NCBI RefSeq assembly: GCF_029867415.1
Contig: NW_026705179.1
Span: 1 to 64,000, forward strand
From: Vicia villosa
Lineage: Eukaryota > Streptophyta > Magnoliopsida > Fabales > Fabaceae
Direction: 5' to 3'
DNA: 64,000 bases
The translations under genes were made by a program, and so were the position numbers. Positions 5,842 to 46,842 of this stretch are shown here, piece by piece. Position 1 is the first letter of the stretch. The number at the start of each line of letters is the position of its first letter. Below the pieces are notes generated by a model, which did no database searches, was not told the DNA's origin, and saw only the letters and a program-made list of their open reading frames with translations.

Positions 5842-5843
5842 AT

Positions 5844-5855: not shown

Positions 5856-5909
5856 AAGCATCCTGCTCTGCATCTGGGTGAGATCTAAGAGAAGATACTT
5901 TTTGTTGCT

Positions 5910-9643: not shown

Positions 9644-9656
9644 AAAAGGGGGAGAT
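9644..9656 (+). other. Polypurine tract of Copia-A
   Basis: AAAAGGGGGAGAT immediately precedes the TGTTG start of the 3' LTR. It is the plus-strand DNA primer site. Confidence 0.8.
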
Positions 9657-13297: not shown

Positions 13298-13312
13298 ATC
13301 TCCCCCTTTGGC
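13298..13312 (-). other. Polypurine tract of Copia-E, first unit
   Basis: Minus-strand GCCAAAGGGGGAGAT directly before the LTR start. The second-unit copy is at 17474-17488. Confidence 0.8.
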
Positions 13313-15770: not shown

Positions 15771-16196
15771 TTACTCCCAGAACCAGTTGTAAGCATGACA
15801 TCCAAGAATTGCAGCTGAGCAATTCAACAATATGCTTGTTTCTTCTTCAAGCAACACAACAAGACCTAACCAATATTCTGACCAGAAAGAAACAGATAAG
15901 CACAAAGAATACCTTATCATTAACTTCACTCCCGCATGAAGGTTTTGACAATCTTCTTCTCTGTACCCTGCTATATGCTGAATAAAACACCCCAAATTCT
16001 TCACTCTCGCACGAATCATTTGGATATCAGTAACACCATCTTCCCTTGCCAAGAGAATACACCTGTTATGGTCAGTTTGGTCCAGTCTACCACACATAGG
16101 TCCATCCTCCACTTCTAGGGACCATTCAATATGAACATGAATGTTCAAACAATCAACTACCTCCAACAACCAGAAAGTATCTCCCATGGATCTCAT
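15771..16196 (-). CDS. Unrecognised 141-aa ORF of Copia-E, unit 1
   Basis: The only sizeable ORF in the element. It starts 22 bases downstream of the primer-binding site in element orientation and ends at 15771. The peptide begins MRSMGDTFWLLEVVDCLNIH and contains several cysteines and a hydrophobic stretch (YSLCLSVSFWSEYWLGLVVLL, about residues 95-115). It has no similarity I recognise to gag or pol. The copy in unit 2 (19947-20372) differs by one residue (R to G in MIRARVKNLG). Its position where gag would begin makes it the only candidate product, but it may be a chance frame; no function is assigned. Confidence 0.3.
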   Translation of the reverse strand: MRSMGDTFWLLEVVDCLNIHVHIEWSLEVEDGPMCGRLDQTDHNRCILLAREDGVTDIQMIRARVKNLGCFIQHIAGYREEDCQNLHAGVKLMIRYSLCLSVSFWSEYWLGLVVLLEEETSILLNCSAAILGCHAYNWFWE

Positions 16197-16217
16197 CCAG
16201 AAACAGACAGGATGCCT

Positions 16218-16229
16218 GCTCTGATACCA
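16218..16229 (-). other. Primer-binding site of Copia-E, unit 1
   Basis: Minus-strand TGGTATCAGAGC two bases inside the LTR end. The unit 2 copy is at 20394-20405. Confidence 0.85.
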
Positions 16230-16231
16230 AT

Positions 16232-17473
16232 TGAAATTCTAGTAAGACAGACCCCAGATGTCATATACGATGTTGTGACATCTGGTCTGTCATCAGCTTG
16301 GCTGAGGCAGTACATACAGATCCCTCAATTATTTATTACATCTAACATCCAGAAGTCTGGAAGTGTTGGGATCCCATATCAGTTCAGTTAACATTAACAA
16401 ATCTGCTTAGCAGAGATTCTGTGTTAGCACAGTCATTAAATCACACACTGATGTCGTGCACGATGTTATGACATCCAAACTGAACTTACAAATAAACAAT
16501 GCAGAAACATAAACAACACAACAGAATTGTTCACCCATTTCGGTTCAATCAACCTACTCTGGGGGCATACCAAGCCAGGGATGAAGTCCACTATTAGCAG
16601 TATCAATTCAGAGCTAAACTCCCAGTTTACAACTCCTCACTTAATCACTACCCAATGACCCTTCTACCTAGGTTCTCCCTAGATATGGAATATCTCCATT
16701 CCACTCCCAATCATAGCAATGATGTCTAGCAGTCAACAACTCAGCCACTGCATCGACGGCTTAATTACCAACATTCAAAGCACACAAATAAACATATCTT
16801 AGAGTTGCTTCAAAGCTTCCTCCAAGCACACAACTCCACTCATTGCTTTACAACTTCTGAGTGAATAAAACAAACCTCTTACCTACAGGCTTCGAGGCAC
16901 AAATCAGTGACCTTCCCACAAACCGGGAGGTTCACCTACACGGCTAACCCTAATGGTTACATCTTTCTAAACGACGGCTAGCTTAGTAAACTAGGTTACA
17001 AAGTTTCCTATTTATAACCTATTCCCAACTGGACTTGGGCTTACAACCGCATCATTATTTGCTGTTACAAATCACAGAAAACTTTCTGCTAAAAACAAGG
17101 TCTTCAATCATAAGTTTCCTAATTTATCTTCATAATTGGAAACTGCATAATTCTCCAATATTCTAATCTTGATTCTCTTGATCTCTAAACCTGCGCCACA
17201 TAGGATTGCATAATATTCCATAGAATATCTTGATGTTGTACCTGTTCTGCATAAATCACAGCAAACAGTATTCTTCACTTCAATTCTTCACAGCAAACAG
17301 TACACTGATGTCATGACATCGAGCATGACATCCAACTCACAGCATGTATTAGCTTACACAACCAGAACTTGGATAACCTTTAACACTATACACCACATAC
17401 CATGACCTTAGTCAAGACAACAAAATACACATGAATGTTTTACCACAAAATGCAGCCAATCAAAACATCTACA
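16232..17473 (-). repeat. Copia-E LTR 2 (shared central LTR)
   Basis: 1242 bp. It serves as 5' LTR for unit 1 and 3' LTR for unit 2. It has ATTCTAGTAAG near its left end where LTR 1 and LTR 3 have ATTCTGGTAAG. With LTR 3 it shares CCCATTTCGG where LTR 1 has CCCAGTTCGG. Confidence 0.93.
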
Positions 17474-20407
17474 ATCTCCCCCTTTGGCAAATTTTTGGCT
17501 AAAACATCTTGTCATCACAGCAGCACAAAAACAACTAGCAAACTACCAGTTATGCAGAATTGCTAAAGCACATCAAAACATCAGACCTGCTGAATAAGTT
17601 CCACAAGCTACACTACCACATACCATGAATAGAAATAACTTGTTCAATATGATCTGGGGTGACAATCTCTTCTCCCCCTGTTTGGCCATAAATGTTGCCA
17701 AAGCAACGTACAGCTCCCCCTTAAAAGTTACTCTGCATGACATGACCACGACACACACAAAAAAACACCATCTGATAATCTTTAGATACCACTTCGCCAC
17801 CAGCTTGATTAGAATACAATAAGTCACCCACAATGGGAGATCTATATTACAAGATGCACTCTTTCATAGATAGCTCATAACTTCTACCACAAGCTCCAAG
17901 AGGTGAATAGAAAACACCTCCTTTTTGTCTTCAACTTATTACTCTTCTGCCCAAAAGTAATTTGTCTAAGACTATCCTCAAGAATAATCAGCTGCCATAT
18001 GTTGATTATCTTGATCCTTCGAACCCACTTCTGAGATGAACCAAATGTCAACACATTGTGTTTTAACATCTAGCTGTTGAATTCAGCTCCTTCTTCTGCC
18101 ACTTGAAAGAACTTCCTCCCTTTACAGAACCAGAGTTCAATGCTCTCATAGACCTGATTGTGAAACCAAGTTTGAGTACGCAACCTCCATCCTGCAGTTA
18201 TGCAGTTATGTCATCCAAGCTCACACTTTTATGAATCCCTGCTTCTTTTCCAACAACATCAGACACTCTGATGCATGAGTCATCAGAAGGACTAGTTAGA
18301 GACTAATCCTCTAGCTGTACCAAGGATGCCACTTCCTTGAGCAAAGCTATTTCCATGATGTCAAGAATACTGCCACTTGTTCTTGACTTCACAGTGTGCA
18401 TTAGCCAATGCACTTCCTTACCTAGATCAGAAATAAACTGATCCAAGTAACCACCATCAAGATTATGATGTCTTCTTCTTCTTGTGCACTCCAAAGCTGA
18501 ACATGTTTCTTGCCAGGAAACTTTTTTCAGTGATCATATGCTTCTGCTGCCACCAAAGAGATAGATCTTAAAACAATTGCACTATCCTTCCTATACATGG
18601 TCTTGAAGAAGAGATGTTCCAACATCTTTAAGAACATCAGTTATCTTGAACTTCCAAGGATAATCAATTAAATACTTGTACTTTGCATAAATAACAATTG
18701 ATCTTAAATCCTTTCCCAGTTAGATTCACCCTTAGGAAAGAGAGAGATGAATCTTTCCTTACAAATGTGTCACACAACAACCAGAACCCATGTGACACCG
18801 TTCAATAGCCAACTAAACACAAGGCTGAATCAGACGTGGGGAGGTTAACCAAATCTCCCCCTCAAACAAGCAATCATGGAAACTCCACACAGCTTATCCA
18901 TGCATTGTACATAAAAGTCTCATTATACAACACCCCTACTAGAGGCAACTAACTCCATGAGTTATACCTATACATACTTCATACACCAGTTGAGGATACT
19001 ATACTTACATAAACCATGGTTAACAGAGATACCATGCAGCGGAAAACAACTAAAATTTATCCTCAATAAACCTCAGGCCTAAAACAATAACCTTTGCATC
19101 AGTCAGCTACACATCATTCATGATTAAGGGATAATATATGCCATATCTCAACAAGGTTTCTGGAACAGATTCACTTATGACATAACTCCTGAAAATACCT
19201 CAGATTCCACACAGTAATCTGACTCCCTTGAATCATCACACAATATTCAAAACCATATTTCACTATGCACGATACACAGTATTCAGTTTTCAACACTAAC
19301 TGTTCTATGGTTAAGAAAACAATTCACACATCTGGCTCCTTTGATCAAAAGGACATACCAGATACAAGCTCATCTTTGGATTTTCATAGAGGTCTTGAAA
19401 AGAAAACCTGAATGAATCCTTTCACTTACACTGAGCTCTTCTTCCAACTCCCATAAGCTTATGCCTGAAATAAACTAACATTTGGGATGGAAGGTTCAAT
19501 TGATTGTATTCTGACCAATCAACACAAAAAGCAGATGTCTCCTCTTCCAGATCAGGAGTAGGTTCCAAACAAATGTACTCACACTACATAAGTTTAGCAC
19601 CAGAACATCTGTTCTTCAACTGGTAGCTGCATACCAGTATGCCATCAATTCCTTCTTCTTGGAACACATAATTCTTGACAATCTTGAAGATCATCAAACA
19701 ACTTTGCAGATGAATATGAGGAACACTGATCATTTGAACCTCTTCAACCTCAATAACCATGCCTTTATGAGTGGACTTGAGAAAAGATTTCAAGTATCTT
19801 TGACACTTGTACTAAAGTTGAGAACAATCTGCTACAAATTCTGTTGAAAACCATATAACCCTAGAGATCTTCTTTCAAAGATAGGATTATGCATCAGATG
19901 CTATGCAGCAGAAAATAGCCATATATCAACAGAGATTACACAATGCTTACTCCCAGAACCAGTTGTAAGCATGACATCCAAGAATTGCAGCTGAGCAATT
20001 CAACAATATGCTTGTTTCTTCTTCAAGCAACACAACAAGACCTAACCAATATTCTGACCAGAAAGAAACAGATAAGCACAAAGAATACCTTATCATTAAC
20101 TTCACTCCCGCATGAAGGTTTTGACAATCTTCTTCTCTGTACCCTGCTATATGCTGAATAAAACACCCCAAATTCTTCACTCCCGCACGAATCATTTGGA
20201 TATCAGTAACACCATCTTCCCTTGCCAAGAGAATACACCTGTTATGGTCAGTTTGGTCCAGTCTTCCACACATAGGTCCATCCTCCACTTCTAGGGACCA
20301 TTCAATATGAACATGAATGTTCAAACAATCAACTACCTCCAACAACCAGAAAGTATCTCCCATGGATCTCATCCAGAAACAGACAGGATGCCTGCTCTGA
20401 TACCAAT
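17474..20407 (-). other. Copia-E internal region, unit 2
   Basis: 2934 bp, same length as unit 1. Single-base differences from unit 1 are seen near 17819, 19740, 20183 and 20266. It contains the polypurine tract at its left end and the primer-binding site at 20394-20405. No gag/pol. Confidence 0.85.
19947..20372 (-). CDS. Unrecognised 141-aa ORF of Copia-E, unit 2
   Basis: Second copy of the primer-site-proximal ORF, full length and open, with one amino-acid difference from the unit 1 copy. As for unit 1, no family is recognised. Retention of both frames is weak evidence because the two units are nearly identical in DNA. Confidence 0.3.
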   Translation of the reverse strand: MRSMGDTFWLLEVVDCLNIHVHIEWSLEVEDGPMCGRLDQTDHNRCILLAREDGVTDIQMIRAGVKNLGCFIQHIAGYREEDCQNLHAGVKLMIRYSLCLSVSFWSEYWLGLVVLLEEETSILLNCSAAILGCHAYNWFWE

Positions 20408-21649
20408 TGAAATTCTGGTAAGACAGACCCCAGATGTCATATACGATGTTGTGACATCTGGTCTGTCATCAGCTTGGCTGAGGCAGTACATACAGATCCC
20501 TCAATTATTTATTACATCTAACATCCAGAAGTCTGGAAGTGTTAGGATCCCATATCAGTTCAGTTAACATTAACAAATCTGCTTAGCAGAGATTCTGTGT
20601 TAGCACAGTCATTAAATCACACACTGATGTCGTGCACGATGTTATGACATCCAAACTGAACTTACAAATAAACAATGCAGAAACATAAACAACACAACAG
20701 AATTGTTCACCCATTTCGGTTCAATCAACCTACTCTGGGGGCATACCAAGCCAGGGATGAAGTCCACTATTAGCAGTATCAATTCAGAGCTAAACTCCCA
20801 GTTTACAACTCCTCACTTAATCACTACCCAATGACCCTTCTACCTAGGTTCTCCCTAGATATGGAATATCTCCATTCCACTCCCAATCATAGCAATGATG
20901 TCTAGCAGTCAACAACTCATCCACTGCATCGACGGCTTAATTACCAACATTCAAAGCACACAAATAAACATATCTTAGAGTTGCTTCAAAGCTTCCTCCA
21001 AGCACACAACTCCACTCATTGCTTTACAACTTCTGAGTGAATAAAACAAACCTCTTACCTACAGGCTTCGAGGCACAAATCAGTGACCTTCCCACAAACC
21101 GGGAGGTTCACCTACACGACTAACCCTAATGGTTACATCTTTCTAAACGACGGCTAGCTTAGTAAACTAGGTTACAAAGTTTCCTATTTATAACCTATTC
21201 CCAACTGGACTTGGGCTTACAACCGCATCATTATTTGCTGTTACAAATCACAGAAAACTTTCTGCTAAAAACAAGGTCTTCAATCATAAGTTTCCTAATT
21301 TATCTTCATAATTGGAAACTGCATAATTCTCCAATATTCTAATCTTGATTCTCTTGATCTCTAAACCTGCGCCACATAGGATTGCATAATATTCCATAGA
21401 ATATCTTGATGTTGTACCTGTTCTGCATAAATCACAGCAAACAGTATTCTTCACTTCAATTCTTCACAGCAAACAGTACACTGATGTCATGACATCGAGC
21501 ATGACATCCAACTCACAGCATGTATTAGCTTACACAACCAGAACTTGCATAACCTTTAACACTATACACCACATACCATGACCTTAGTCAAGACAACAAA
21601 ATACACATGAATGTTTTACCACAAAATGCAGCCAATCAAAACATCTACA
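20408..21649 (-). repeat. Copia-E LTR 3 (5' LTR of the tandem)
   Basis: 1242 bp, abutting the right-hand AGAAG duplication. Private differences include GTTAGGATCC (others GTTGGGATCC), CTCATCCACTG (others CTCAGCCACTG), CACGACTAACC (others CACGGCTAACC) and ACTTGCATAACC (others ACTTGGATAACC). Confidence 0.93.
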
Positions 21650-23859
21650 AGAAGGTTCTCTGTCCAGGCTTCTCAAAATACTTCCTATACTCATCACTCC
21701 GACGACTATTACTTCCTTTCTCAATTATGAACTGATGAGCTTTCCCATGGCGAGGATCATACCTAACTCTCTTAGCAGCCTCCGCGTCGAACACAACGTC
21801 ACACCTTGGACAGAGGCCGACCTGAGAGTTTTTCTTCTCACATCTTTCCAAAAAATTCAATAGTCATTCGTCAGTTCAAGGGTACACAAAACTTAGGGCC
21901 CTGTTGTCACCAGCAATATTTCACATTCCTGTTCCATCTTCACCGAGACCTTCATTAGTCTCGACCATCATAATCTCCAAAGGCTCAGCATAATTTGCCT
22001 CTCCCACTAGCAATGGGTCAATATTGATTTGCATGGAAGATTTTGGCTTTTCACCAAACTGGAGCTTGCCTTCCTTCAGAGATTTTTGCATCAAATCCCT
22101 AAAAAGAACACATTGAGATGTTTTATGACCAAAAAAATTATGAAATTTACAAAACCCTCTCTTTTTTTCTGCTCTAATGGAGGATTTTTTTAGTCCTGGG
22201 GGCACTATGGTTTTCCCGTTGCTCAATAATAGGTTGAATATCTCGTCGCATTTAGTTGTGTCAACTGTGTATGTTCTATTAACAAACTTTTCATTTTTGT
22301 TATTCTCTACGGGATTTTTCCATTTGATGGCTTGACCACTTTACAAACGTAAGAAGGCCTCGACTTTAATTTTGCCATATTGACCTCACTTTCGTCATGG
22401 ACACTTTAGTGATCAGAATAAAACTCATCAGTTGCTACATAGGCCACTTTTTCTTTCCTATGATACTTATTTACTCTTTCCTTTTCAGCCTTCAAACGTT
22501 CGACCTGGCAGACTCTGTCTGCTAATTGTGCCATATCTCTAAGGTACTGGGTGTCTAGTTTCTTCCTAATGGAATAATCTAAACCTCCAGCAGCCATCTG
22601 GACTAACTCATGTTCAAGGATCTGTGTGAAGCATCTTGTCTTCATCAATCTGAACCTGTTCAAGTAATCGTCCATCGACTAAGCGACCTTTCATCTTACA
22701 CTTGCTAATTCTTTAAGGCTGATCTTTGACTGGACCATATAAAATTGTTCATGGAATAATCTTTCTAATTAGTTCCATGATTGTACTGATTGTGGAGGCA
22801 AAGTTGTGAACCATGTGAAAGCATTCTTCGTCAAAGATTTTGGAAAATATTTCATTTTCAGATTTTCATTATTTGATATGACACCTGCTTCGGTCTGAAA
22901 CCTTGCAACATGTTTGACCGTTGATTCACCTATTTCGCCAGCAAATTTGGTAAACTTTGGGACTTTCCAACCCCTAGGTAATTCAGTCTGTCTAACATAC
23001 TCCGACAATAGAGATACAAAGTTTGGCCTATGAAGCCCTAAGTTAAGGCCGTTTTTAGTCAAGATTTGTTCGACTACGTTGGATATGTTGTGATAACCCC
23101 CATATTGGTTTAGTTGGACATTCCTAAGGACTTGGTCTGCGTCTTGATTATGTTTCACAATCCTTGGGATGTGCTGCTCTATACGTTCTTCTTTGTCCCT
23201 ATTTGGAATCTGTTGTTGGTTATCCTATGTAACCCTATTCTTTGGCATTTCACCAAGCCTCACGTTTAAGATTTATGGCGTCGGCCTTGTTTGAATTTGT
23301 GGGGTGCCAAAGAAATTAGCTATTCTAGCCATTTGACCAACCAACATCTCATAACTTTGATTGGTATTATTGATCATGGGACTGAAGATAGTCCCAATTT
23401 GTTGTGTTAAGGAATTCACCATTTCATGGTTACTTTCGTCCATTTGTTGCCTAATCGACAACATAGACGTCTTTTTTAGTGAGGGTGATGATTGGTGAAT
23501 GTACCTTACTCTCGTTGGTCGATTATCTGGGTTTGAGGAAGTGCCAGTGACCATCATGTTATCAGAATAAGTTGATGGGTTAGATTGTAATCCTGCCATC
23601 ATTGACTAAGGCATACTGTAAGGGTAAAAGGCAATGGGTGGTATCGTTCCCCCTTGAAATAACGACCTTGCAAGATTCAGCGGCGACCGCCCTAGATTTA
23701 CTGGCGACGATGCATTGGCCGCCGTCGAGCAAGGGGTGGTTGTTGTCCTAATTAGGGACAAAACCGTCGAATTTTGAGACACTATGCACATTGGTGCAAC
23801 ATCTAAATTTGAATTATTATTTGAGGGGGATTGGAAGTGTTTGTATTTGTATTAGACAT
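21650..23859 (-). pseudogene. gag: Gypsy-A gag (broken)
   Basis: Ty3/gypsy Gag of the Tat-like type on the minus strand. A likely start ATG is at 23859 (MSNTNTNTSNPPQ), followed by an early stop and frame change. The capsid core lies at 23158-22769 (LPRGWKVPKFTKFAGEIGES, then NENLKMKYFPKSLTKNAFTW). Next is FRLMKTRCFTQILEHELVQM (22675-22406), then after a frameshift a knuckle-like CKFHNFFGHKTSQC segment (22226-21921), then CPRCDVVFDAEAAKR. Stops near 23604, 23270, 22767, 22404 and 21919 and at least two frameshifts make it non-functional. The left end is cut by Copia-E; the frame would continue at 12055. Confidence 0.82.
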
Positions 23860-27635: not shown

Positions 27636-28376
27636 TGTCATACCCCAAAATTTGCCCATATCATTTCATCTTCAAGGGCTCAAGGCTCAAGGGTTTATTC
27701 AGTCAACATTCTCCTAATCGAGGGCCTCCTAAACTAGGGTTTGCAATTTATCAAAAATTTTGAATCTCGAAGGCCTCAAATGGATCTCAAGGTGTCTCAT
27801 ATGTCTAAAGGTATCTCTATGTCAATTATCAAGCTTCTATACCAAGGATTGCGCACTCAATGGCTCAGATCATCGATAATCGACTATACTGACCTAAAAG
27901 TCAACATTAGTCAAAATACAGTCAAACATCAATATTTTTGGTCAACATCAAGTATGTAAGGCTATACCCATCATTTGATCAAAGGTTGATCATGATCCAC
28001 TAATAAAAACTTGGAAATGAACAAAGACAAGGTTCAAATTAGGGTTTTTTAAAGGAGAAAGTCAACTCAACTTTGACTGGTCATAACTTTCACATGGAGC
28101 ATCAAAAATTTCCCAACTAAAGCCTATTTTGAAGGAAATTTGATTCTCTACAACTTTATCTATCACAAGCCAAGGCCAGAAATGCTTCATTTGGGAGATA
28201 TGGTGCAAAAGATTACAGGTCCTCAAAAAAGGTCAACAAAAACATCTTTTAGGTCAAAGCTCATAACTTGAGCACGGAAACTTCAATGGAGATGAAACAA
28301 AAGAGAGTGTTTATAAGACTCTTTGAGCTTTCTAAAGAGTCCAAGAACACTTTCATATGTCAAAAATTGGGCAAGA

Positions 28377-29916
28377 TGTGAATACAAGATTACACTCAAA
28401 GATGTTTTTGATTCATGGCAAACTCAAATAAGCATTCAAACAACAAGACGGAAGCAGAAAACTTAAAGAAAAGCAAGCATTGATCTCTCATAGGTCAACC
28501 CATTATGTTTATATGTTTATAGGTTGCCTCAACACAAGCAAAACAAGAAGAATGCAGAAAAACAGCAGTTAGGTCGACCTACCATCAACCCAGGTCGACC
28601 TAAAATGGAGAAAAATTCATATATCCCTGCTAGGTCGACTCACACATCATTTAGGTCGACCTAAATTGATGAATTCTACATACCAGCCTGTTAGGTCGAC
28701 CTACACATCAACTAGGTCGACCTAATCTGTGAAAATGTCCCCAGAATGCATCAGAAGAGGATTCTGGTCGACCTACTCCTTCAACAGGTCGACCTAACTG
28801 GGAGCAAAATTCTGCAAGCTCTGTTAGGTCGACCTAAGCACTACAAGTGGTCGACCTAACTGATCAAGAAAGTTCAAAAATCAGTTTTTCTTGGTTCTAA
28901 CTGTTATGCAATCATATATATTGTGCAAGGGTAATTATTCAAGCAACACCAACGACTGAAAGATACACAAACGCTTCTCATCTTCGTTCTTCATCATCTC
29001 CAACACAATTACACATAATCATTCTTGCGTTGCGGGTTAGTGATGAGTTCGATAACGTCCATGGAACGGAATTGAAGATTCCTAGTGGGTGAAGGTTTGT
29101 GGGGTTTGTTGGTGAATAAAATCTGCGGGTTTTGTCCTCCACGACGGGTGGTTCTTGGGGGTTTTTATCAAGAGGCGTTCATTGAGGATTCGGCTGAGTG
29201 TAACGATTGAGGAACGGGGAGTTCAAGGAATCAAGACACTGCAGAAGGGAATCAAAGTGAAGCTCTTGGATAACCTTGATCTGGCTCAAGATTAAGGGGG
29301 AAGAAGATTCAAAGGATCGACATAATTGGTTTATCGTTTATCGCTTTGTTATCTTCTTTGTATATACTACTTTCAACATTAATGAAAGATTACCCAATTT
29401 CAATTTGGAATTGGGGGCAGACGTAGTCGTAGCGAGGACGATCGACGAACTGCCTAAACAAATATCGTGTTCTTGTCGCTTTTACTTTCTCTTTTACTTT
29501 CTGTTCATAATTGGTTATAAGTGCAAAATTGATCAACGACTCAAGTGTTAAAATTGTGAATTAAAGTTCTGCACAAACATCACAATTCACCACAACTTGA
29601 ATCACTATCAATTTGAACGTATCACCAAGTGTTTGTGTTTTTGCTTAATCCAATCTTACTGCATTGCAAATCAAAGTTGTCAATCTAGAAGTTAATTGGT
29701 TTTCAGTTGTTAAACGTATTGGTTAGCCATCATATTACTTCACCATCAATTCCACTTACTTTTTGGTTTTGAAACACATACGACCTTTGCAATAGCGGTC
29801 CGGAATAGACGCAAGTCGATTCAGAACCGCTTTCGCTCGAGTCAGTAGAAAAATCCGTAAAAACTTAGTGAGATCTATTCACCCCCCCCTCTAGATCTTT
29901 AGGCCAGCGTCTAACA
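28377..29916 (+). repeat. Copia-B 5' LTR
   Basis: Starts TGTGAATACAAGATTAC and ends CAGCGTCTAACA. It contains ten GTCGAC-centred palindromes (28570-28857), an AT-rich TATATATTG near 28914-28922 as probable TATA region, and a C-run close to 29881-29889. A 91-codon frame in its right half is considered chance. Confidence 0.93.
28570..28857. repeat. Phased array of ten TAGGTCGACCTA palindromes (5' LTR)
   Basis: Cores GTCGAC start at 28573, 28594, 28634, 28655, 28695, 28716, 28767, 28788, 28828 and 28850. Steps are 21, 40, 21, 40, 21, 51, 21, 40 and 22. Flanks are mostly TAG/CTA, giving 10-12 bp perfect palindromes; the third copy is degenerate on one side. Confidence 0.92.
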
Positions 29917-29917
29917 A

Positions 29918-29931
29918 GTGGCATCAAGAGC
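29918..29931 (+). other. Primer-binding site of Copia-B
   Basis: GTGGCATCAAGAGC immediately after the LTR end. It resembles the initiator-Met type site with one extra A and a C for T. Assigned by position. Confidence 0.6.
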
Positions 29932-29971
29932 TCTGGTTTATTCCGTGCTACGTGAAACACTTATTGGAAAG

Positions 29972-31711
29972 ATGGCTTCCGGACCTAAAGGGGCTCATAA
30001 TAGAGCTCCAGTTTTCAACGGAGAAAACTACGGCTATTGGAAGGATTGTATGTGTGTCCATATCAATGAAATTGATAGGAACATCTGGACAGCTATTGTC
30101 AATGGTCCATTTCAGATCACCATGACAAATGCAGCTGGTGCAGTTGTTCCAAAACCAGAAGATACTTGGAATGCTGAAGATGAAAAGAAATATGCATACG
30201 ATTGGAAAGCGAGAAACATTCTAATCTCAGCTCTAGGAGTTGATGAATACTATCGCGTTTCCCATTGTAGATCAGCTAAAGCTATGTGGGACACATTGCA
30301 AGTTGCCCACGAGGGAACGGATGATGTCAAACTAGCTAGGATCAATACGTTAACTCAAGAGTTCGAACTTTTCCACATGGAAGATGGTGAAACCATCGAA
30401 AGCATGCAGAAAAGATTCGTTCACCTGAAAAATCGATTAAATTCTCTTGATAGACCTGTTTCCAATGCAGTTGCTACTAACAAAATCTTAAGGTGTTTGA
30501 ACAGGGAATGGCAGCCCAAAGTTACAGCAATTAAGGAAGCAAATGATCTCAACACTTTAGACATTACCACTCTCTTTGGTAAACTAGAGGAACATGAACA
30601 GCATCTTAAATGCCTTGACATGCATGAGAAGAGGACAAAGAAAGAAAAGAACATGGAGAAAGAGGTAGAGAAGAAGTCAATAGCTCTAAAAGCTTCGAGC
30701 TCCAAGACCTCAAAACGAGAGCCAAAGGATAGTGACACAAGTGATGACGAAGACTCCGATGATGAGGAAATGGGACTGTTTGTGCGAAGATACAACAAAT
30801 ATCTAAAGAAAAATGGAGCAAAACATTCCGACAAAGGATTGATCAACTATAGAAAGCAATCAAACATGTTCAAACAAGATGACGACAACAAAGGAAAGAT
30901 CAAAGGTCTTTGCTTCAATTGTGGGAAAGCCGGTCACTACAAACCGGATTGTCCATACCTTAAGAAAGAAAAGGAGAAGAACCAAAGCAAAGGTCATAAC
31001 AAATCTAAAAGAGCTTACATAGCATGGGAAAGTGATTCATCTAGTGAAAGCTCGTCAAGCGATGAAGAAGAATCAGCAAACCTATGTTTCATGGCTCATC
31101 AAAACAAGAAAAAGAAAGCTGTAAGTCATCTTAAACCTGAACTCGTAGATAAGGTATCTCATTCTCAACTAAAACTTGCCTTTGAAGAATTACATAGAGA
31201 TGCAATTAAAGCTTTCAAACTTTTGGCCTCAAATAAGAAAATATTTTCATATCTTGAATCAAAAGTTGAGAAAACCGAAAGGGATATGGAAGCTTTAAAA
31301 CAATCTATGCTAGACATTCAAAAGGACAAAGTTGAAATAGATCCTACATCATGGTTTGGTTGTGAGACATGTCACATTTGGCAAAAAGAAGTAAGAGATC
31401 TAAAAGCCAAGTTAGACAAGGCTCTACAACCAAAAGTGACTTTTGCAGTTGATCCAAACAAGTTCAAAAGATCGTATACTCCTTTATATAGTAAATACAC
31501 TTTTGTACCAAAAGTATCAACTAGCAAAACTCCATATTCTCATCATATTACCTGTCATTATTGTTGCAAAAAGGGACATACCATTGAAAAATGCAAATTT
31601 AGGAGAATTTTAGTTCCTAAAGGAGTATTTCAATGGTTGCCTAAGTGCAACAAATTGTGTACTCACTACCAAGGACCCAATGAAAATTGGGGACCTCCCT
31701 CTTTAAATTAA
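29972..31711 (+). CDS. gag: Copia-B Gag
   Basis: 579-residue copia Gag. The start is the ATG at 29972 ([24 protein letters not shown] signature); a frame-continuous GTG at 29918 lies in the primer-binding site and is not credible. The capsid (UBN2-type) region spans about residues 30-220, with [17 protein letters not shown] and [15 protein letters not shown] lysine/acid-rich linker follows, then zinc knuckle 1, [14 protein letters not shown], at residue 314. A helical stretch (about 395-470) and zinc knuckle 2, [14 protein letters not shown], at residue 528 complete it. No stops. It overlaps the start of the pol frame (31687), which is offset by -1; the family normally reads through, so the frame change may be a mutation or a programmed shift. 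Confidence 0.9.
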
Positions 31712-34440
31712 TCTTGCAGGAAAAGTGTCTTGACATTGCCGAAAGGTTGTGGTTCCTTGATAGCGGATGTTCAAGACACATGACTGGAGACCTATCTCTT
31801 TTCGTTGAGTTTCAAGCAAAGAAAAAGGGGTATGTCACCTATGGAGATAACAATCGGGGAGCCATACTTGGTAAAGGAAGTGTAGGTAACCCTTCGACCA
31901 CTACTATAACTGATGTGCTGCTAGTAGAAGGTCTTAAACATAATCTTTTAAGTATAAGTCAATTGTGCGACAAAGATTTTAAAGTAATGTTTACAAATTC
32001 TGGATGCACAATAGAACATACTAAGAAAAGAGACATTATGTTTAAGGGCTTAAGAGTAAACAACATCTACATGCTAAACTTGGATGAGGTATCTAAGTCT
32101 AGTACCAAATGTCTAGTTGCTCTAGGCGATGACTCATGGCTTTGGCATAGACGTCTCGCCCACATAAACTTTGACTTACTAAATAAAGTTGTCTCAAAAG
32201 ATTTAGTAATCGGCTTACCCAAAATGAAGTTTTCAAAAGATCATCTATGTGATGCTTGTCAAAAGGGAAAGCAAACAAAAATCTCTTTTAAATCAAAGAA
32301 CGTGGTTTCAAACGCGATTAGTACAGCATGTTATGTTTTGAATAGGATAACAATACGCCCTATACTGAACAAAACTCCCTATGAATTACTAAAGGGTAGA
32401 AAACCAAATGTATCTCATCTCCATGTATTCGGTTGCAAGTGTTTTGTTTTGAACAATGGTAAGGATAATCTTGGCAAATTCGATGCTAAAGCTGATGAGG
32501 GCATATTCCTTGGTTACTCACAATCTAGCAAAGCATATCGAATATATAATAAGAGATTACTTATAGTAGAAGAGTCAGTACACGTTTCTTTTGATGAATC
32601 TTATGCAAAATATGTCGAGAAAGGTCTTTCATTTAATGGTGCAGGCCCATTCACTGAAGACATTGTCAAGGATAAGGAAGATGAGGATGAAAGTATTGTA
32701 AAGAAAGATGCTGAGAGAGAGAAAGATGAGTCTCACAATGAAAATGAAAAAGAAAGCATCTCAAACAATGAAGAACTTCCCAAGGCCTGGACAAACGTGA
32801 AAGACCATCCAATTGACAATATAATAGGAGACATCTCAAGGGGCGTTACAACACGCTCAAAGATAAGTAACTTCTGCCATCATTTTGCTTTTGTTTCACA
32901 AGTTGAGCCGAAAAACGCTAAGGATGCATTACTTGATGAGCATTGGCTAATGGCCATGCAAGAAGAATTAAACCAATTTAAACGGAATGATGTTTGGGAC
33001 TTAGTCCCTCATCCGGGAGATCATCAAGTAATAGGCACTAGATGGGTTTTTCGGAACAAACTTGATGAAAACGGTGTTATTACTAGAAACAAAGCTAGAT
33101 TAGTTGCCCAAGGTTACAATCAAGAGGAAGGTATCGATTATGAAGAGACATACGCTCCTGTAGCACGTCTCGAAGCTATTCGCCTCTTACTTGCTTATGC
33201 TTGTTCTAAAGACTTCAAACTATTCCAAATGGATGTTAAGAGTGCCTTTCTAAATGGCTATATAAATGAAGAAGTCTATGTTGCTCAGCCACCCGGCTTT
33301 GAGAATTACATGTATCCAACTCATGTTTATAAGCTGAAACGTGCTCTATACGGTCTTAAACAAGCCCCTCGGGCTTGGTACGAACGTTTGAGCAAATTTC
33401 TCCTTAGTCAAGGGTACTCTAGAGGTAAAGTTGATACTACTCTCTTTATTAAAAGAAAAGATAAGGATATTCTCTTAGTCCAAATTTATGTAGATGATAT
33501 TATATTTGGGTCCACTAATGCAAAACTTGTCAAAGACTTTTCTAAGCTTATGCAGAGTGAATTTGAGATGAGTCTCATGGGTGAGCTAAATTTCTTCCTT
33601 GGCCTACAAATCAAGCAACTCAGTCATAGAACGTTTGTGAATCAAACTAAATATTGTACGGAGCTGCTCAAAAGATTTGGAATGAGTGAAGCAAAGGAAA
33701 TTGACACACCTATGGCAACAAATACAAATCTAGACAAAGATGAGAAAGGTAAAGAGGTTGACGTGAAATTATACCGAGGTATGATAGGTTCACTATTGTA
33801 TCTTACTGCCTCAAGACCAGACATTATGTTTAGTGTGTGTATGTGTGCAAGATATCAATCTTGTCCAAAAGAATCTCACTTGAAAGCTGTCAAAAGAATT
33901 CTGCGATACTTACGTGGAACTACTACATATGGCCTATGGTATCCAAAAGGAAATGAGTGTCATTTGGTAGGATTCTCCGATTCAGATTTTGCTGGCTGCA
34001 AATCCGATAGAAAAAGCACTAGTGGAACGTGTCATCTATTCTCAAACTCATTAATAAGTTGGCATAGTAAGAAACAAGTATCGGTTGCATTATCCACTGC
34101 TGAGGCAGAATATGTAGCTGCTGGAAGCTGCTGTGCACAAATATTATGGCTCAAGCAACAACTTCTTGACTTTGGTATTAAGCTTGATCACATACCTATC
34201 ATGTGCGACAACACAAGCGCCATAAACTTGAGTAAAAATCCTGTCTTACACTCACGTACCAAACATATTGAAATAAGGCATCACTTTCTACGAGATCATG
34301 TAGAGAAAGGAGACGTTACTTTTGAACATGTAGAAAGCAAGAAGCAACTAGCTGACATCTTCACCAAACCTCTAGCAACGGAGCAATATTTCAACATTCG
34401 TAGGGAATTAGGGATACTCGATATCTCTAATTTGGGCTAA
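31687..34440 (+). CDS. pol: Copia-B Pol, integrase core deleted
   Basis: 917-codon open frame. The protease motif [11 protein letters not shown] has its catalytic Asp at residue 25. The GAG-pre-integrase/zinc region follows ([18 protein letters not shown]). At about 32310 the sequence jumps from FKSKNVVS to [10 protein letters not shown], so the integrase catalytic core with its D,D,E residues is missing without loss of frame. RT is complete: [30 protein letters not shown] and YVDD at residues 601-604. RNase H has [20 protein letters not shown] and [13 protein letters not shown], and ends ..[11 protein letters not shown]. The first ATG (31687) is in the gag overlap, so translation probably depends on gag. 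Copying RNA to DNA looks possible; integration would need integrase in trans. Confidence 0.9.
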
Positions 34441-34928
34441 TTACGTTTGTTTTCTCTTAATATTATTTCTTTACTTTATGTATATATCTATTTGTCTTGC
34501 TAACATTTTTCTTAGCGTAAAGGTAGTTCATCATCAAGCCAGGCGTCATATTGAAAAAGCGGTAACGTAATTGTTGTTCACTTCCAAAAATATTATTGAT
34601 ACTATAATATGCTATCAATTAACATGCTTATAGTGACTTCATGCATAAAAACTGCTCCTGCTCACATATGTGTCTCATTCTATCATTAACTACCTTTTAC
34701 CTACTATACTGTACATGCTAGCATTATTATCTATGGTTCTCTTGTTACTCTCCTATTCTCCTGTTTTCTCTTTTTGATGTTGACAAAGGGGGAGATAGAT
34801 GCTGGATGTACGGGGGAGCTTTGTTGAGAGATTGCCCTGTTGAGAGATAGATGCTGGATGTACGGGGGAGCTCTGTTGAGTCTTTATCATTTACTACCAA
34901 AGCTTAGACGAATGGTTTGCCATCATCA
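34441..34928 (+). other. Copia-B 3' untranslated region with 52-bp tandem repeat
   Basis: T-rich non-coding region. The segment GATAGATGCTGGATGTACGG occurs twice, about 52 bases apart (near 34795 and 34847), each followed by a GGGGGAGCT tract. No env-like ORF is present. Confidence 0.6.
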
Positions 34929-34941
34929 AAAAGGGGGAGTA
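34929..34941 (+). other. Polypurine tract of Copia-B
   Basis: AAAAAGGGGGAGTA-type tract directly before the 3' LTR. Confidence 0.8.
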
Positions 34942-36481
34942 TGTGAATACAAGATTACACTCAAAGATGTTTTTGATTCATGGCAAACTCAAATAAGCAT
35001 TCAAACAACAAGACGGAAGCAGAAAACTTAAAGAAAAGCAAGCATTGATCTCTCATAGGTCAACCCATTATGTTTATATGTTTATAGGTTGCCTCAACAC
35101 AAGCAAAACAAGAAGAATGCAGAAAAACAGCAGTTAGGTCGACCTACCATCAACCCAGGTCGACCTAAAATGGAGAAAAATTCATATATCCCTGCTAGGT
35201 CGACTCACACATCATTTAGGTCGACCTAAATTGATGAATTCTACATACCAGCCTGTTAGGTCGACCTACACATCAACTAGGTCGACCTAATCTGTGAAAA
35301 TGTCCCCAGAATGCATCAGAAGAGGATTCTGGTCGACCTACTCCTTCAACAGGTCGACCTAACTGGGAGCAAAATTCTGCAAGCTCTGTTAGGTCGACCT
35401 AAGCACTACAAGTGGTCGACCTAACTGATCAAGAAAGTTCAAAAATCAGTTTTTCTTGGTTCTAACTGTTATGCAATCATATATATTGTGCAAGGGTAAT
35501 TATTCAAGCAACACCAACGACTGAAAGATACACAAACGCTTCTCATCTTCGTTCTTCATCATCTCCAACACAATTACACATAATCATTCTTGCGTTGCGG
35601 GTTAGTGATGAGTTCGATAACGTCCATGGAACGGAATTGAAGATTCCTAGTGGGTGAAGGTTTGTGGGGTTTGTTGGTGAATAAAACCTGCGGGTTTTGT
35701 CCTCCACGACGGGTGGTTCTTGGGGGTTTTTATCAAGAGGCGTTCATTGAGGATTCGGCTGAGTGTAACGATTGAGGAACGGGGAGTTCAAGGAATCAAG
35801 ACACTGCAGAAGGGAATCAAAGTGAAGCTCTTGGATAACCTTGATCTGGCTCAAGATTAAGGGGGAAGAAGATTCAAAGGATCGACATAATTGGTTTATC
35901 GTTTATCGCTTTGTTATCTTCTTTGTATATACTACTTTCAACATTAATGAAAGATTACCCAATTTCAATTTGGAATTGGGGGCAGACGTAGTCGTAGCGA
36001 GGACGATCGACGAACTGCCTAAACAAATATCGTGTTCTTGTCGCTTTTACTTTCTCTTTTACTTTCTGTTCATAATTGGTTATAAGTGCAAAATTGATCA
36101 ACGACTCAAGTGTTAAAATTGTGAATTAAAGTTCTGCACAAACATCACAATTCACCACAACTTGAATCACTATCAATTTGAACGTATCACCAAGTGTTTG
36201 TGTTTTTGCTTAATCCAATCTTACTGCATTGCAAATCAAAGTTGTCAATCTAGAAGTTAATTGGTTTTCAGTTGTTAAACGTATTGGTTAGCCATCATAT
36301 TACTTCACCATCAATTCCACTTACTTTTTGGTTTTGAAACACATACGACCTTTGCAATAGCGGTCCGGAATAGACGCAAGTCGATTCAGAACCGCTTTCG
36401 CTCGAGTCAGTAGAAAAATCCGTAAAAACTTAGTGAGATCTATTCACCCCCCCCTCTAGATCTTTAGGCCAGCGTCTAACA
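34942..36481 (+). repeat. Copia-B 3' LTR
   Basis: 1540 bp, near-identical to the 5' LTR. The palindrome array recurs at 35135-35422, shifted by 6565. Confidence 0.93.
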
Positions 36482-36486
36482 CAAGA

Positions 36487-39142: not shown

Positions 39143-40933
39143 ATGGTTGAAACAACAACTACTCCAAATTCTCCTGAGCAAAACAACAATGGTAACAATG
39201 GAAGTAGTAGCTTCAATGGTTACAATAGACCACCAGTCTTTGATGGTGAAAACTTTGAATACTGGAAAGATAGACTTGAAAGTTACTTTCTATGTCAAGA
39301 TGGTGATCTATGGGATTTAGTGTTGGATGGTTACAAATATCCTATGAAAGCTCAAGTAGTCAAGCTTACTAGACAAACTATGAGTGATGACCAAAAGAAA
39401 GAATTCAGGAATCATCACAAATCAAGAACTATATTGTTAAATGATATTTCTCATGTTGAGTATGAGAAAATAACAAATAGAGAAATAGCTCATGATATTT
39501 TTGAATCTCTAAAGATGACTCATGAGGGAAATGCTCAAATAAAGGAGACAAAGGCTCTGGCTCTCATCCAGAAGTATGAAGCTTTCAAGATGGAAGATGA
39601 TGAGAATAATGAAGCAATGTTTTCAAGATTCCAGACTCTGACTGCTGGATTGAGAGTGTTATATAAAGGCTACACCAAAGCTGATCATGTAAAGAAGATT
39701 ATCAGAAGCTTACCCAGAAGATGGAGACCCATGGTGACTGCCTTCAAGATTGCCAAGAATCTGAATGAGGTGTCTCTTGAAGAGCTGATAAGTGCCTTAA
39801 GAAGTCATGAGATTGAGCTAGATGCAAATGAGCCTCAGAAGAAAGGTAAGTCAATTGCTTTAAAATCTAAAAATAAAAACTGTGCTAACGTGTTTCAGGC
39901 AGAAGAAGAAGAATATGACTCGTCAGAGTCAGAAGAAGAAGAAGATGAATTATCTCTCCTATCCAGAAGAGTAAATAAACTCTGGAAGAGCAAGCAGAGA
40001 AGATTCAAGAACTTTAAGAGGCCTGAAAAGGTAGAATCTTCTGAACACAGAAGATCTAGAAAAAAGAAGGTAACGTGCTATGAATGCAAAGAACCTGGAC
40101 ACTACAAGAATGAATGTCCAAAGCTTCAGAGGGAAAAGCCCAGAAAGAAATTTGAAAAGAAGAAAGGCATGATGGCTACATGGGATGACTCTGATTCATC
40201 TGATCAAGAGTCAGACTCTGAAGATGAGCAAGCCAACATAGCAATCATGGTAATAGTTGACACTGGTGAAGAATCTACTTCTGATTCAGACTCTAATGAG
40301 GTATTTTCTGAACTCACTAGAGAAGATTTAGTTTTCATCTTATCAGAACTTCTGGAAGTCAAGAGTCAACTTAGTATCAAATACAAAAATCTCAAAAAGC
40401 TCTTTGAATCGGAAACTAAGAAACTTGAAATAGAAAACTCTGAACTAAAGGAAAAAGTTTTAAAATTGTCTAAAGATGTTGAAACATCTTCAAGTTCATA
40501 AAAGTATATTCCAAGCACTAACAATATTCTGAAAGAATATGACTTGAGCTTCAGAAAGTTCTTATGTAGAGGTATAGGCAGAAGTCAGCTAGCCTCTATG
40601 ATTTATGCTGTAAGTGGAAACAAGAGAATAGGTATAGGCGTTGAGGAAGAAACCCCATATAAACTTGAACCTGTTGATGAGATGATTATCAATTACAAAC
40701 CTTTGTATGAACAGTTCAAGTATGGTCACTCTCATGATATCAAGCACACATCACACTCTAAGAGTTTCCACATAAAACACACAAAGAAATATGTTGTTGC
40801 ACATTCTGGTATATCTTATGTGAAATCTCAGTTCAATCAGAACTTCAGAAGGACTAACCCCAAAGGACCCAAAATAATGTGGATACCTAAGGATAAGATA
40901 ATTCCTGCTGCAGATCTCCTTCACGGCTCATAA
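39143..40933 (+). pseudogene. gag: Copia-C gag (two in-frame stops)
   Basis: SIRE-like Gag. The ATG at 39143 begins MVETTTTPNSPEQNN; the upstream in-frame GTG at 39092 is not used by this family. Capsid: FDGENFEYWKDRLESYFLCQ, MTHEGNAQIKETKALAL, MVTAFKIAKNLNEVSLEELI. The zinc knuckle CYECKEPGHYKNEC is at residue 312, followed by an acidic stretch and a helical tail. TAA at 40499 interrupts, and the same frame resumes as NNILKEYDLSFRKFLCRGIG through YKPLYEQFKYGHSHDIKHTS and GPKIMWIPKDKII to a second TAA at 40931. In related elements this region joins directly to pol, so both stops are probably decay. Confidence 0.85.
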
Positions 40934-40940
40934 GAAAAAC

Positions 40941-43468
40941 ATGTCATGGTACCTGGACTCTAGATGCTCACGTCACATGACTGGAAGAAGGTATATGTTC
41001 CAAAGCCTAGAACTTATATCTGCTGGAGAAGTAAAGTTTGGAAGGAATCAGAAGGGAAAAATCATTGGCTCAGGAACCATATGCTTTGGTAATTCTCCCT
41101 CTATAACTAATGTTCTTTTAGTAGATGGATTAGCTCATAACTTATTGTCCATAAGTCAATTAAGTGACAATGGTTATGACATAATCTTTAATCAAAAGTC
41201 TTGTAAAGCTATAAGTCATAAGGATGGCTCAATCCTATTTACAGGCAAGAGAAAGAACAACATTTATAAGATTGATCTTTCAGATCTTAAGAACCAAAAG
41301 GTTACTTGCCTTATGTCTGTTAACGAAGAGCAGTGGGTCTGGCACAGAAGATTATGTCATGCTAGTTAGAGAAAGATTTCTAAGATTAACAAGCTTAATT
41401 TGGTTAGAGGACTCCCTAATCTGAAATATAAATCAGATGCTCTTTGTGAAGCATGTCAGAAAGGGAAGTTTTCAAAACCTACGCTTAAATCTAAAAATGT
41501 TGTCTCTTCCTCTAAGCCTTTAGAACTTCTGCACATTGATCTATTTGGCCCAGTAAAAACAGCATCAATCAGAGGAAAGAAATATGGATTGGTCATTGTA
41601 GACGACTATAGAAGATGGACTTGGGTAAAGTTCTTAAAACACAAGGATGAGTCACATTCTGTGTTCTTTGACTTCTGTAATCAGATCCAATCTGAAAAGG
41701 AATGTAAAATCATAAATGTCAGAAGTGATCATGGTGGTGAATTTGAGAACAGATTCTATGAAATTTATTTCATAGAAAATGGTATTGCCCATGATTTCTC
41801 TTGTCCTAGAACTCCACAGCAAAATGGAGCTGTAGAACGAAAGAATAGGACTCTACAAGAAATGGCCAGAACCATGATCAATGAGACTAATATAGATAAG
41901 CATTTCTAGGTAGAAGCAATTAACATAGCTTGTTATATTCAGAATAGAATCTCCATAAGACCTATTCTAAATAAGACTCCTTATGAATTGTGGAAGAACA
42001 GAAAGCCCAACATTTCTTATTTCCATCCATTTGGATGAGTCTGTTATATTCTGAATACTAAAGATCATCTGAATAAGTTTGATTCCAAAGCTCAGAAGTG
42101 TTTCCGTCTTGGATATTATGAACGCTCTAAAGGCTACAGAGTATACAATATTGAAACTCTGGTAGTTGAGGAATAAATCAATATCAGATTTGATGATAAG
42201 CTTGGCATTGAAAAGCCAAAGCAGTTTGAGAATTTTGCAGATATAGATATATCTAACTCATATCATGAAGAACCCAAGGGAAAGGATGATGCAGAAGATC
42301 AAGTTGCAGCATCTTTAGAGAATCTCAGAATATCTGAAGAGCAAACACGCAGAAGATCTCTTAGACTCAACTCTGCTCATCTAGAAGATGTTATTATTGG
42401 AAAGAAAGATGATCCCATCAGAACAAGAGCATTCCTAAAGAACAATGTAGAATGTTAATTTGGTTTAGTGTCTTTGTTTGTGCCAACTTCTGTTGATCAA
42501 GCTCTGGAAGATGCTGACTGGATAATTGCTATGCAAGAAGAGTTAAATCAATTTACAAGGAATGATGTTTGAGATTTGGTCCCAAACCTTGGTATGAAAG
42601 ATTAAGTTCTTTCCTTTTGGATAATGGTTTCACAAGAGGAAAAGTAGACACAACTCTCTTCTGTAAAACCTATAAAAAGGATATGCTAATTTGTCAAATT
42701 TATGTTGATGATATTATTTTTGGAACATCTAATGCTACACTTGGAAATGAGTTTGCTAAGTCTATGCAGGAAGAATTTGAGATGAGCATGATGGGAGAAC
42801 TCAAGTATTTCCTAGGCATTCAGATAAATCAAACTTCTGAAGGAACTTATGTTCATCAGACGAAGTATGTCAAAGAGCTTCTGAAGAAGTTCAATCTGTC
42901 TGAAAGCAAAGAAGCAAAAACTCCAATACATCCAACTTGCGTATTAGGTAAGGATGAGGTAAGCAAGAAGGTAGATCAGAAGATCCACAGAGGTATGATA
43001 GGATCTCTTCTATATCTAACTGCTTCTAGACCTGATATTTTATTCAGTGTATGCATGTGTGCTAGATTCCAATCAGATCCTAGAGAATATCACTTAACTG
43101 TTGTTAAGAGAATTCTAAGGTATGTGAAAGGTACTACTAATGTTGGTTTAGTCTACAGAAGATCTGAAGAATACAACTTAGTAGGATATTATGATGCTAA
43201 TTACGCTGGAGATAGAGTTGAAAGGAAAAGGACTTCTGGAAGCTGTCAGTTTCTAGGAAGTAACCTAATCTCCTGGTACAGCAAGAAGCAAGCAACAATT
43301 GCACTCTCTACCACAGAAGCAGAATACGTAGCTGCTGCTGGATGTAGTACACATATGCTCTGGACGAAAATTCAGCTAGAAGACTATCAGATATATGAGA
43401 GTAACATTCCTATTTTTTGTGATAATACTTCTGCTATTTGTTTATCTAAGAATCCTATTGTAATACGG
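40941..43468 (+). pseudogene. pol: Copia-C pol (stops, RT deletion, truncated RNase H)
   Basis: Protease: LDSRCSRHMTG, where the catalytic DSG is DSR. Integrase: HRRLCHAS, CEACQKGK, then LLHIDLFGP, NVRSDHGGEFEN and NGAVERKNRT carry the D, D and E residues. In-frame stops lie at 41367, 41907, 42036, 42174, 42456 and 42570; the one at 41907 replaces a tryptophan. At about 42580 a deletion joins DLVP directly to PWYERLSSFLL in another frame, removing the N-terminal half of RT including the first catalytic aspartate. [26 protein letters not shown] and RNase H (STTEAEYVAA, CDNTSAICLSKNP) follow. It ends at 43468 where L3 begins. Non-functional. Confidence 0.88.
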
Positions 43469-43870
43469 TGAACTGAATTTTTTGAAATGTGCGGATAGCA
43501 AGAGTCGCTACCGACTTTTATTTTATCCAAATTAAAGAAAGGCAAAAAGAACAGTGATAACACGATTTTATATCGTATATTTAGCCTGAAATCCATAGAT
43601 ATTTATAGCATTTTCCGTTTATTATGTTGATTTATTATGATATTACGCGAGTTTTTGCTTTGTTTCAGGTTTTACACTCTTATTATGACTATTTGTGAAA
43701 AAGAGAAGAAATGGAGCTAAAACGACCTCTATTTATGCCTAAATGATGAAGAATGGGTGCTGAAGTAAAAAGGGAGTGCAAATAAGGCCCAAGTCTGCTG
43801 AAAGAGACCCAAAGACCCAATGAAGCAATCCAGCCCACGAAGGAAAGAAGCCCAAACCATACAAGCAAGT

Positions 43871-44011
43871 GGAGACGCACGTCTCCACGTCTCAATGGAC
43901 ACATCAGCAAAAGGGAGACGCACGTCTCCAGTCCCCTACATTCTCTCCACTTGAGACGCACGTCTCAAGTCTTCAACGAAGTCCCCAAAAAAGGCGGAGA
44001 CGCACGTCTCC
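43871..44011. repeat. Four palindromes GAGACGCACGTCTC in the Gypsy-C 5' LTR
   Basis: At 43871-43886, 43914-43929, 43952-43967 and 43996-44011. Each has 7-base arms around a CA centre; the third has T/A in place of the outer G/C pair. The 3' LTR carries the same set near 56115-56255. Confidence 0.9.
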
Positions 44012-44068
44012 GAGTCCAAGTCTGTTGGAAGCTCCTCTTTTCACGCAAAGCAACTTCAAAGCCTTGCC

Positions 44069-44077
44069 TATAAATAG
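44069..44077 (+). promoter_or_regulatory. TATA box of Gypsy-C 5' LTR
   Basis: TATAAATAG followed by AGGCAGCC. The 3' LTR copy is at 56313-56321. Confidence 0.65.
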
Positions 44078-45257: not shown

Positions 45258-45275
45258 TGGCGCCGTTGCCGGGGA
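45258..45275 (+). other. Primer-binding site of Gypsy-C
   Basis: TGGCGCCGTTGCCGGGGA, the site characteristic of Athila-type elements (tRNA-Asp type), six bases after the LTR end. Confidence 0.92.
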
Positions 45276-45353
45276 CTATTTAAGTCGATATCGTAACTCA
45301 CTGTTACACCGTAGAGACTAGGGAAATTCTTTCCTTTCTTTCTGAACGATTGT

Positions 45354-46757: not shown

Positions 46758-46842
46758 TCCTAAAGGACATGCGAACGCGATAACACTACGAAGTGGAACA
46801 AATTACGATGGACCCATTGATCCTAGAACTCAAAACGCACCC

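Follow-up and report, generated by a model that had tools for sequence, protein, structure and literature searches.

A palindromic box with a GTCGAC core is repeated ten times upstream of a probable TATA box in the long terminal repeat (LTR) of a recently inserted copia element of Vicia villosa, and the steps between the boxes cluster near whole multiples of about 10.2 bp. The element lies in a stretch of 64,000 nucleotides (contig NW_026705179.1, positions 1 to 64,000; here called the window). Related arrays of the same genome show the same clusters of spacing, the boxes are better conserved than the spacers between them, and two relatives of the element carry a second array outside the LTR. 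With somewhat better than an even chance in our estimate, the array is a U3 enhancer on which a dimeric host factor would bind along one face of the DNA, with the spacing under selection.

The element and its palindrome array

The element occupies positions 28377-36481 of the plus strand, with a 5′ LTR of 1540 bp and TG...CA ends at 28377-29916 and a 3′ LTR at 34942-36481, flanked by the target site duplication CAAGA (28372-28376 and 36482-36486). The two LTRs differ at a single position (29122 T, 35687 C), and this one mismatch together with the duplication on both sides bears out the assignment to a young copia LTR in the preliminary description. A gag open reading frame (ORF) at 29918-31711 (first ATG at 29972; PF14223, PF00098) is followed on the same strand by a pol ORF at 31687-34440 (PF07727, PF13976, PF22936, PF25597), in which the domain search gave no match to the integrase core PF00665. 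Compared with the relative P0043, 135 residues are missing from pol, with 93-94% identity on both sides. The lack of an integrase core in an element that inserted recently suggests that it was perhaps mobilised by other copies. Among the named pol relatives are proteins of Trifolium repens, Cajanus cajan and Glycine soja, in keeping with a legume host.

Several sequence marks identify the element as a Ty1/copia insertion of the Sirevirus type. The terminal polypurine tract AGGGGGAG (34932-34939, plus strand) starts 10 bp 5′ of the 3′ LTR, an extra upstream tract AGGGGGAG (34787-34794, plus strand) gives two copies in the linker, and the poly-C integrase signal CACCCCCCCCTCTAG is located just before the LTR end. 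An inverted repeat surrounds the junction of the polypurine tract and the 3′ LTR (local score 14; 1000 shuffles gave a mean of 7.6 and a maximum of 14, equal to the observed score). The two tracts are fewer than those of described Sireviruses, for which the available part of PMC2829016 gives four linker copies on average and 3-5 in the rows of its Table 2. According to the same part of that source, the Sirevirus junction reads CA/ATTGG or AGTGG with the primer binding site TATCAGAGC, and AT lies between polypurine tract and LTR. In our element AGTGG is present, but TATCAGAGC is replaced by CATCAAGAGC and AT by TA, i.e., the tRNA-binding site and the attachment dinucleotide deviate from the Sirevirus form.

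The ten boxes, of the type TTAGGTCGACCTAA, span positions 28569-28859 on the plus strand of the 5′ LTR. Their GTCGAC cores start at 28573, 28594, 28634, 28655, 28695, 28716, 28767, 28788, 28828, and 28850, giving steps of 21, 40, 21, 40, 21, 51, 21, 40, and 22 bp, exactly as first described, and an identical array is present on the plus strand of the 3′ LTR at 35134-35424 (cores 35138-35420); the two do not differ anywhere in 28560-28870. Together the two arrays hold 20 of the 24 GTCGAC sites of the window, where 4.16 were expected and the largest number in 100 shuffles was 10, and no GTCGAC was found in the internal part of the element between them. When the window was scanned for short palindromes present at least four times in 400 bp, only the copia array and an array in an Athila LTR were returned; shuffled controls, 20 per arm length for two arm lengths, returned none. 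Viewed as 14-mers, the boxes pair at 4 to 7 of their 7 arm positions. Each of the 10 CpG dinucleotides of 28560-28870 falls inside a box; the 155 nt of spacer contain none, compared to 5.8 expected by shuffling and about 3 expected at the CpG level of the window (chance of zero, 4%).

A probable TATA box, TATATAT, was found on the plus strand at 28915-28921, 55 bp past the last 14-base box, so that the array precedes the probable TATA region, in agreement with the preliminary description. Of five LTR arrays, four had TATA 57, 57, 55, and 56 bp beyond the last 10-base box, counted from where this box ends; the fifth contained no TATA[AT]A match. Upstream of the array, AGGTCAACCC (28492-28501) and AGGTTGCC (28521-28528) were called by eye as relics against subfamily A2 (see below), one locus of which (L114) has an intact box pair in the matching sequence. 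The segment 28492-28528 (plus strand) probably holds the remnants of a lost box pair.

The second array returned by the scan belongs to an Athila element (43555-57513) with a gypsy pol and ATHILA domains (Ty3/gypsy) and a target site duplication AACAG identified by eye, in which a CpG-containing palindrome array is located just before the TATA box of each LTR. Four GAGACGCACGTCTC palindromes lie at 43871-44011 on the plus strand of the 5′ LTR, with TATA at 44069, 57 bp past the array, and the other GAGACGCACGTCTC array lies at 56115-56255. The boxes are separated by steps of 43, 38, and 44 bp and are unphased (0.44); one of them carries a symmetric outer change that preserves the palindrome. 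The literature search yielded no title naming Athila palindrome arrays among the matches listed. The window also contains a minus-strand Sirevirus-like element (12053-21650) made up of three LTRs and two internal regions that repeat with a period of 4176 bp at 99.8% identity, a second Sirevirus-like element (4901-10614; LTRs 91% identical) with three AGGGGGAG and without a palindrome array, and gag-pol remains of another copia element (39221-43489), whose pol is at most 60% identical to that of the young element and which abut the Athila insertion.

Spacing and conservation of related arrays

In the preliminary description the steps had been taken to lie near multiples of 10-10.5 bp, and the array had been considered not to be a simple tandem repeat. 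The latter view was abandoned, as Tandem Repeats Finder reported a 61-bp period with 76% matches at 28570-28725 and the spacers aligned better than shuffled ones (the score was reached by 59 of 2000 shuffles for the short and by 6 of 2000 for the long spacers). The array is therefore a degenerate 61-bp tandem repeat, and its spacings amount to few independent facts. Free DNA usually has about 10.5 bp per turn. The phase coherence of the window steps peaked at a period of 10.23 bp (R 0.956) and was only 0.21 at 10.5 bp, where the drift along the array sums to most of one turn; we consequently rejected 10.5 bp as the helical period and retained the claim of near-multiples for about 10.2 bp. The observed phasing was matched by 0 of 20,000 draws of independent spacings, by 1.3% when a tandem origin was granted, and by 6.7% when only a single indel was left free. 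From the window array alone, the helical claim is weak.

Relatives were sought in the window's own genome (2.03 Gb), where counts are lower bounds and TAGGTCGACCTAA occurred 14,776 times on one strand, compared to 20 times for the control. Two non-random sets of loci were used, namely 26 loci on contig C1 chosen by an exact 13-mer (L094-L119) and 20 loci chosen by an off-phase pair (L125-L144); L106, with 3 boxes, and L117, with 1 box, were left out of the tests. The arrays were grouped into LTR group A with the subfamilies A1 and A2, LTR group C, and array B, which lies outside the LTR. Subfamily A1, which includes the window's element, has the steps 21, 40, 21, 40, 21, 51, 21, 40, and 22, whereas A2 has 21, 50, 21, 40, 21, 51, 21, 51, and 22. 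In group C and array B the steps within pairs were 21-22 bp and the longer ones 29-30, 40-42, or 50-52 bp, with the exceptions of 20 and 33, both in one array; other copies of array B also had 39 and one 19. Over A, C, and B the long steps were thus 20, 29-30, 33, 40-42, and 50-52 bp, and those of 29-30, 40-42, and 50-52 bp recurred in different order between arrays.

Array B was found in the A2 elements L120 and L121, where seven boxes with steps of 21, 51, 21, 39-41, 21, and 42 bp are located in the interval between pol and another ORF (415 or 241 residues), whose sole domain match was PF20167, below its cut-off.

The phasing test was performed on six arrays (A1, A2, B, C122, C123, and C124). 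For their 25 long steps V was 0.877 and for the 14 steps distinct within each array V was 0.865, neither value being reached in any of 20,000 uniform draws; with the strictest collapse, into five length clusters, 501 of 20,000 draws (2.5%) reached the observed value. Genome-wide, GGTCGACC pairs 28-58 bp apart numbered at least 16,765 (control, 6), and the 50 listed were all at 29, 39-42, or 50-51 bp. The valleys between these values were sparsely occupied, with at least 11 pairs at 33-37 bp (control, 4) and at least 59 at 43-48 bp (control, 0); together the valleys cover 11 of 31 possible values with at least 70 pairs. Since few masters gave rise to the copies and the LTR groups share ancestry, these counts are not independent. 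Of the 59 pairs at 43-48 bp, 50 were listed, 33 of them at 43 bp, 11 at 44 bp, 1 at 45 bp, 4 at 46 bp, and 1 at 48 bp. The 20 loci picked for an off-phase pair contained 145 steps of 12-60 bp, among which 73 were at 21-22, 19 at 40-41, and 21 at 50-52 bp; the remainder comprised 29-30 (three), 12 (seven), 54 (three), 58-59 (two), and other odd values.

When both strands were compared, the LTRs of groups A and C aligned with 80-90% identity over about 0.7-1.1 kb downstream, the U3 parts only piecewise. As these LTRs are alignable, the groups share ancestry, and their spacings are not independent draws. Array B and the D locus (L134) gave only short matches of 34-113 bp to group A. The relatives thus agree in part with the proposal that spacing is kept modulo one turn while spacers diverge: the clusters and the diverged spacers are found, but the period is about 10.2 rather than 10.5 bp, ancestry is shared, some loci include off-phase steps, and the Athila array is unphased. 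The related arrays strengthen the helical reading beyond the window alone, and shared ancestry limits the spacing inference, with 2.5% in the strictest test.

Some loci differ in the make-up of their arrays. L134 (G000:C6:3188600-3190300) has the same box in a clearer 61-bp tandem array, and L140 (G000:C1:224872600-224874300) has it in 12-bp steps; both loci match the arrays presented here in short stretches only. L124 (G000:C1:19542500-19550500) is an LTR with a 15-box array that is 90% identical to the window LTR downstream of the array; the different number of array units despite the similar downstream LTR may have arisen by recombination.

That the palindrome is kept while the spacers differ, as proposed at the outset, is supported by the 3′ half of the array, where the window and eight A2 copies differed at 3 of 384 box sites but at 108 of 664 spacer sites (16%), four of the five spacers being compared, those of equal length. 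Pairwise differences per site were 0.0083 for boxes versus 0.0892 for spacers within A1 (9 arrays including the window) and 0.0094 versus 0.0784 within A2 (8 arrays), all with at least 8 exact cores; the choice of loci by an exact 13-mer, an exact box pair, and exact cores inflates the conservation of the boxes in these figures. A single A1-A2 alignment gave differences at 2 of 80 box and 47 of 203 spacer sites, and the comparison of the 3′ half is preferred to it because this alignment probably joins box pairs that are not counterparts. In the 3′ half, A1 and A2 differ by indels of +4, +8, and -1 bp, a net change of +11 bp, all in one spacer and in 8 of 8 A2 copies; in the flanks the indels are of 1-5 bp.

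Proposed origin and function of the array

The array would have originated by duplication of a two-box unit of 61 bp. Under the enhancer reading, each box would be bound by a dimeric host transcription factor, with selection maintaining the box and box-to-box distances close to whole turns (about 10.2 bp each). The 21-bp pairs would correspond to two turns and the larger steps to three, four, or five turns, placing the dimers on one face, where they could cooperate and activate transcription from the downstream TATA box.

It is possible, though we think it rather unlikely, that the spacing was inherited without selection through amplification of a single ancestral array with units of 61 and 72 bp, leaving other indels scant time or few opportunities to arise. 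The 61-bp tandem repeat with its homologous spacers, the alignment of groups A and C at 80-90% over 0.7-1.1 kb, and the 1.3% and 6.7% obtained for the window once its tandem origin was granted or a single indel was free all favour inheritance. It explains less readily that A1 and A2 spacers have come to differ at 16% of sites and that the flanks have small indels, yet the array changed by a net +11 bp, and that the 29-30, 40-42, and 50-52 bp steps stand in different orders among arrays. We regard it as improbable that the phased boxes instead set the rotational position of a U3 nucleosome: the best period of 10.23 bp is close to that of nucleosomal DNA, but the boxes are specific 8-10-mers, unlike the short AT/GC steps that are expected for nucleosome positioning.

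The boxes could also pair in the transcript, as a structure or as a source of silencing small RNAs, and such an RNA structure had been considered possible from the start. The fold of the 311 nt is strong (-123.6 kcal/mol, z -9.1), 11 of 286 windows of 110 nt fell below -40, and the LTR palindromes of maize Sireviruses are small-RNA hotspots according to the accessible parts of PMC10760457 and PMC5311732. When the boxes were held fixed and the spacers shuffled, however, the mean fold was still -116.5 and 10 of 200 shuffles were as good. As the boxes alone give most of the fold, RNA structure was rejected as the chief explanation of the array; pairing predicts neither a spacing by turns of 10.2 bp nor a fixed TATA distance, and we consider an RNA feature unlikely. 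Small RNAs produced over palindromes of this kind might reflect a reaction of the host to the array. The bound factor might be an R2R3-MYB protein, each box being formed by two half sites of the AC-element type, ACCTA(A/C), in inverted orientation, loosely as in the MYB-regulated Tto1 LTR. ACCTA[AC] occurs 13 times in the 311-bp array, compared to 0.41 expected from its density in the window, and AC elements are MYB targets (PMC5467005, from the part available), and NtMYB2 is the activator of the Tto1 element (PMC6762207, likewise in part). Across 79 boxes of eight arrays, however, ACCTA[AC] was present in 49 right arms and its complement in 30 left arms, as counted with a box finder that favours the core GTCGAC, and some arrays are almost devoid of it (C122, 1 of 9 right arms). 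Being strong in the window and weak across arrays, MYB AC elements were rejected as the conserved part, and we give a MYB factor little chance.

Returning to the enhancer reading, we tentatively propose a generalisation that we hold with clearly less than even confidence: Sirevirus-type elements would possess a helically phased multi-dimer enhancer in which the palindrome and the number of turns are selected and length changes by whole turns (about 10-11 bp or the 61-bp unit), the same rule applying to the array in the LTR and to that between pol and the ORF, and Athila having its own array at a similar TATA distance. The 2010 description of palindrome clusters in Sirevirus LTRs named no binding factor; if the reading is true, whole-turn spacing with diverging spacers would reflect cooperative binding on one face of the DNA. 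The thousands of box pairs in one genome would then allow enhancer spacing to be studied as in a natural mutagenesis experiment, and the putative factor could be sought with the box as a ready bait.

Comparison with known palindrome arrays and LTR elements

Searches with the array sequences gave the following results. In viral contigs, TTAGGTCGACCTAA was found in 56 stretches and a three-box pattern in 18, none of them similar to the element; the same holds true for the 11 stretches with a two-box pattern in prokaryote genomes. No pol relatives were found in viral contigs, and the LTR had no match in plasmids. A literature search for the 12-mer TAGGTCGACCTA returned no plant paper, judging by title, and one for GGTCGACC with retrotransposon and LTR returned PMC2829016 as the only relevant paper among the matches listed, the others being judged by title; the match of PMC6712407 to GGTCGACC is a primer.

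In tobacco Tto1, a 13-bp LTR element is the target of the activator NtMYB2 (PMC6762207 and PMC4108030, in the parts available), and the present box resembles it as a short, putatively regulatory element in a copia LTR. The ACCTA of the present box is not kept across arrays and is a candidate MYB site only. The maize Sirevirus palindromes (Bousios et al. 2016, as reported in the available parts of PMC10760457 and PMC5311732) likewise form clusters in the regulatory region of the LTR, but the palindrome there is CACCGGACNNNGTCCGGTG (PMC10760457).

The closest counterpart is provided by the palindromic repeated motif (RM) boxes that Bousios et al. (2010) reported upstream of TATA in Sirevirus LTRs. 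In the available portion of that paper (PMC2829016), RM boxes are present in at least 8 copies and cluster from 200-400 bp into the LTR, in its upper half; 12 of 13 published RMs have a CGG-CCG core, and the RM cluster forms a CpG island. The array described here is similarly composed of ten copies of a palindrome, beginning about 190 and ending about 480 bp into the LTR with TATA 55 bp further on, and the Vitis RM CGGTCGACCG has GGTCGACC in common with our box. Unlike the RMs, the box is AGGTCGACCT, with AGG..CCT in place of CGG..CCG, and its array is not a CpG island (GC 0.40-0.47 and CpG observed/expected 0.52-0.65 in 200-bp windows over the array). Extra RM copies are described in the linker of ENV-bearing elements and as absent from ENV-less linkers, and the location of the arrays in L120 and L121 agrees with these ENV-associated boxes, the ORF here matching PF20167 below its cut-off only. 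The same portion reports RMs as Sirevirus-specific relative to classic Ty1/copia elements, whereas the Athila array of the window belongs to a Ty3/gypsy element. Helical spacing is absent from the RM description as far as that portion goes. Based on these sequence comparisons, the array matches the Sirevirus RM-box kind except for two traits, the core and the CpG island. Palindrome clusters of this kind were already known; the spacing rule may be new.
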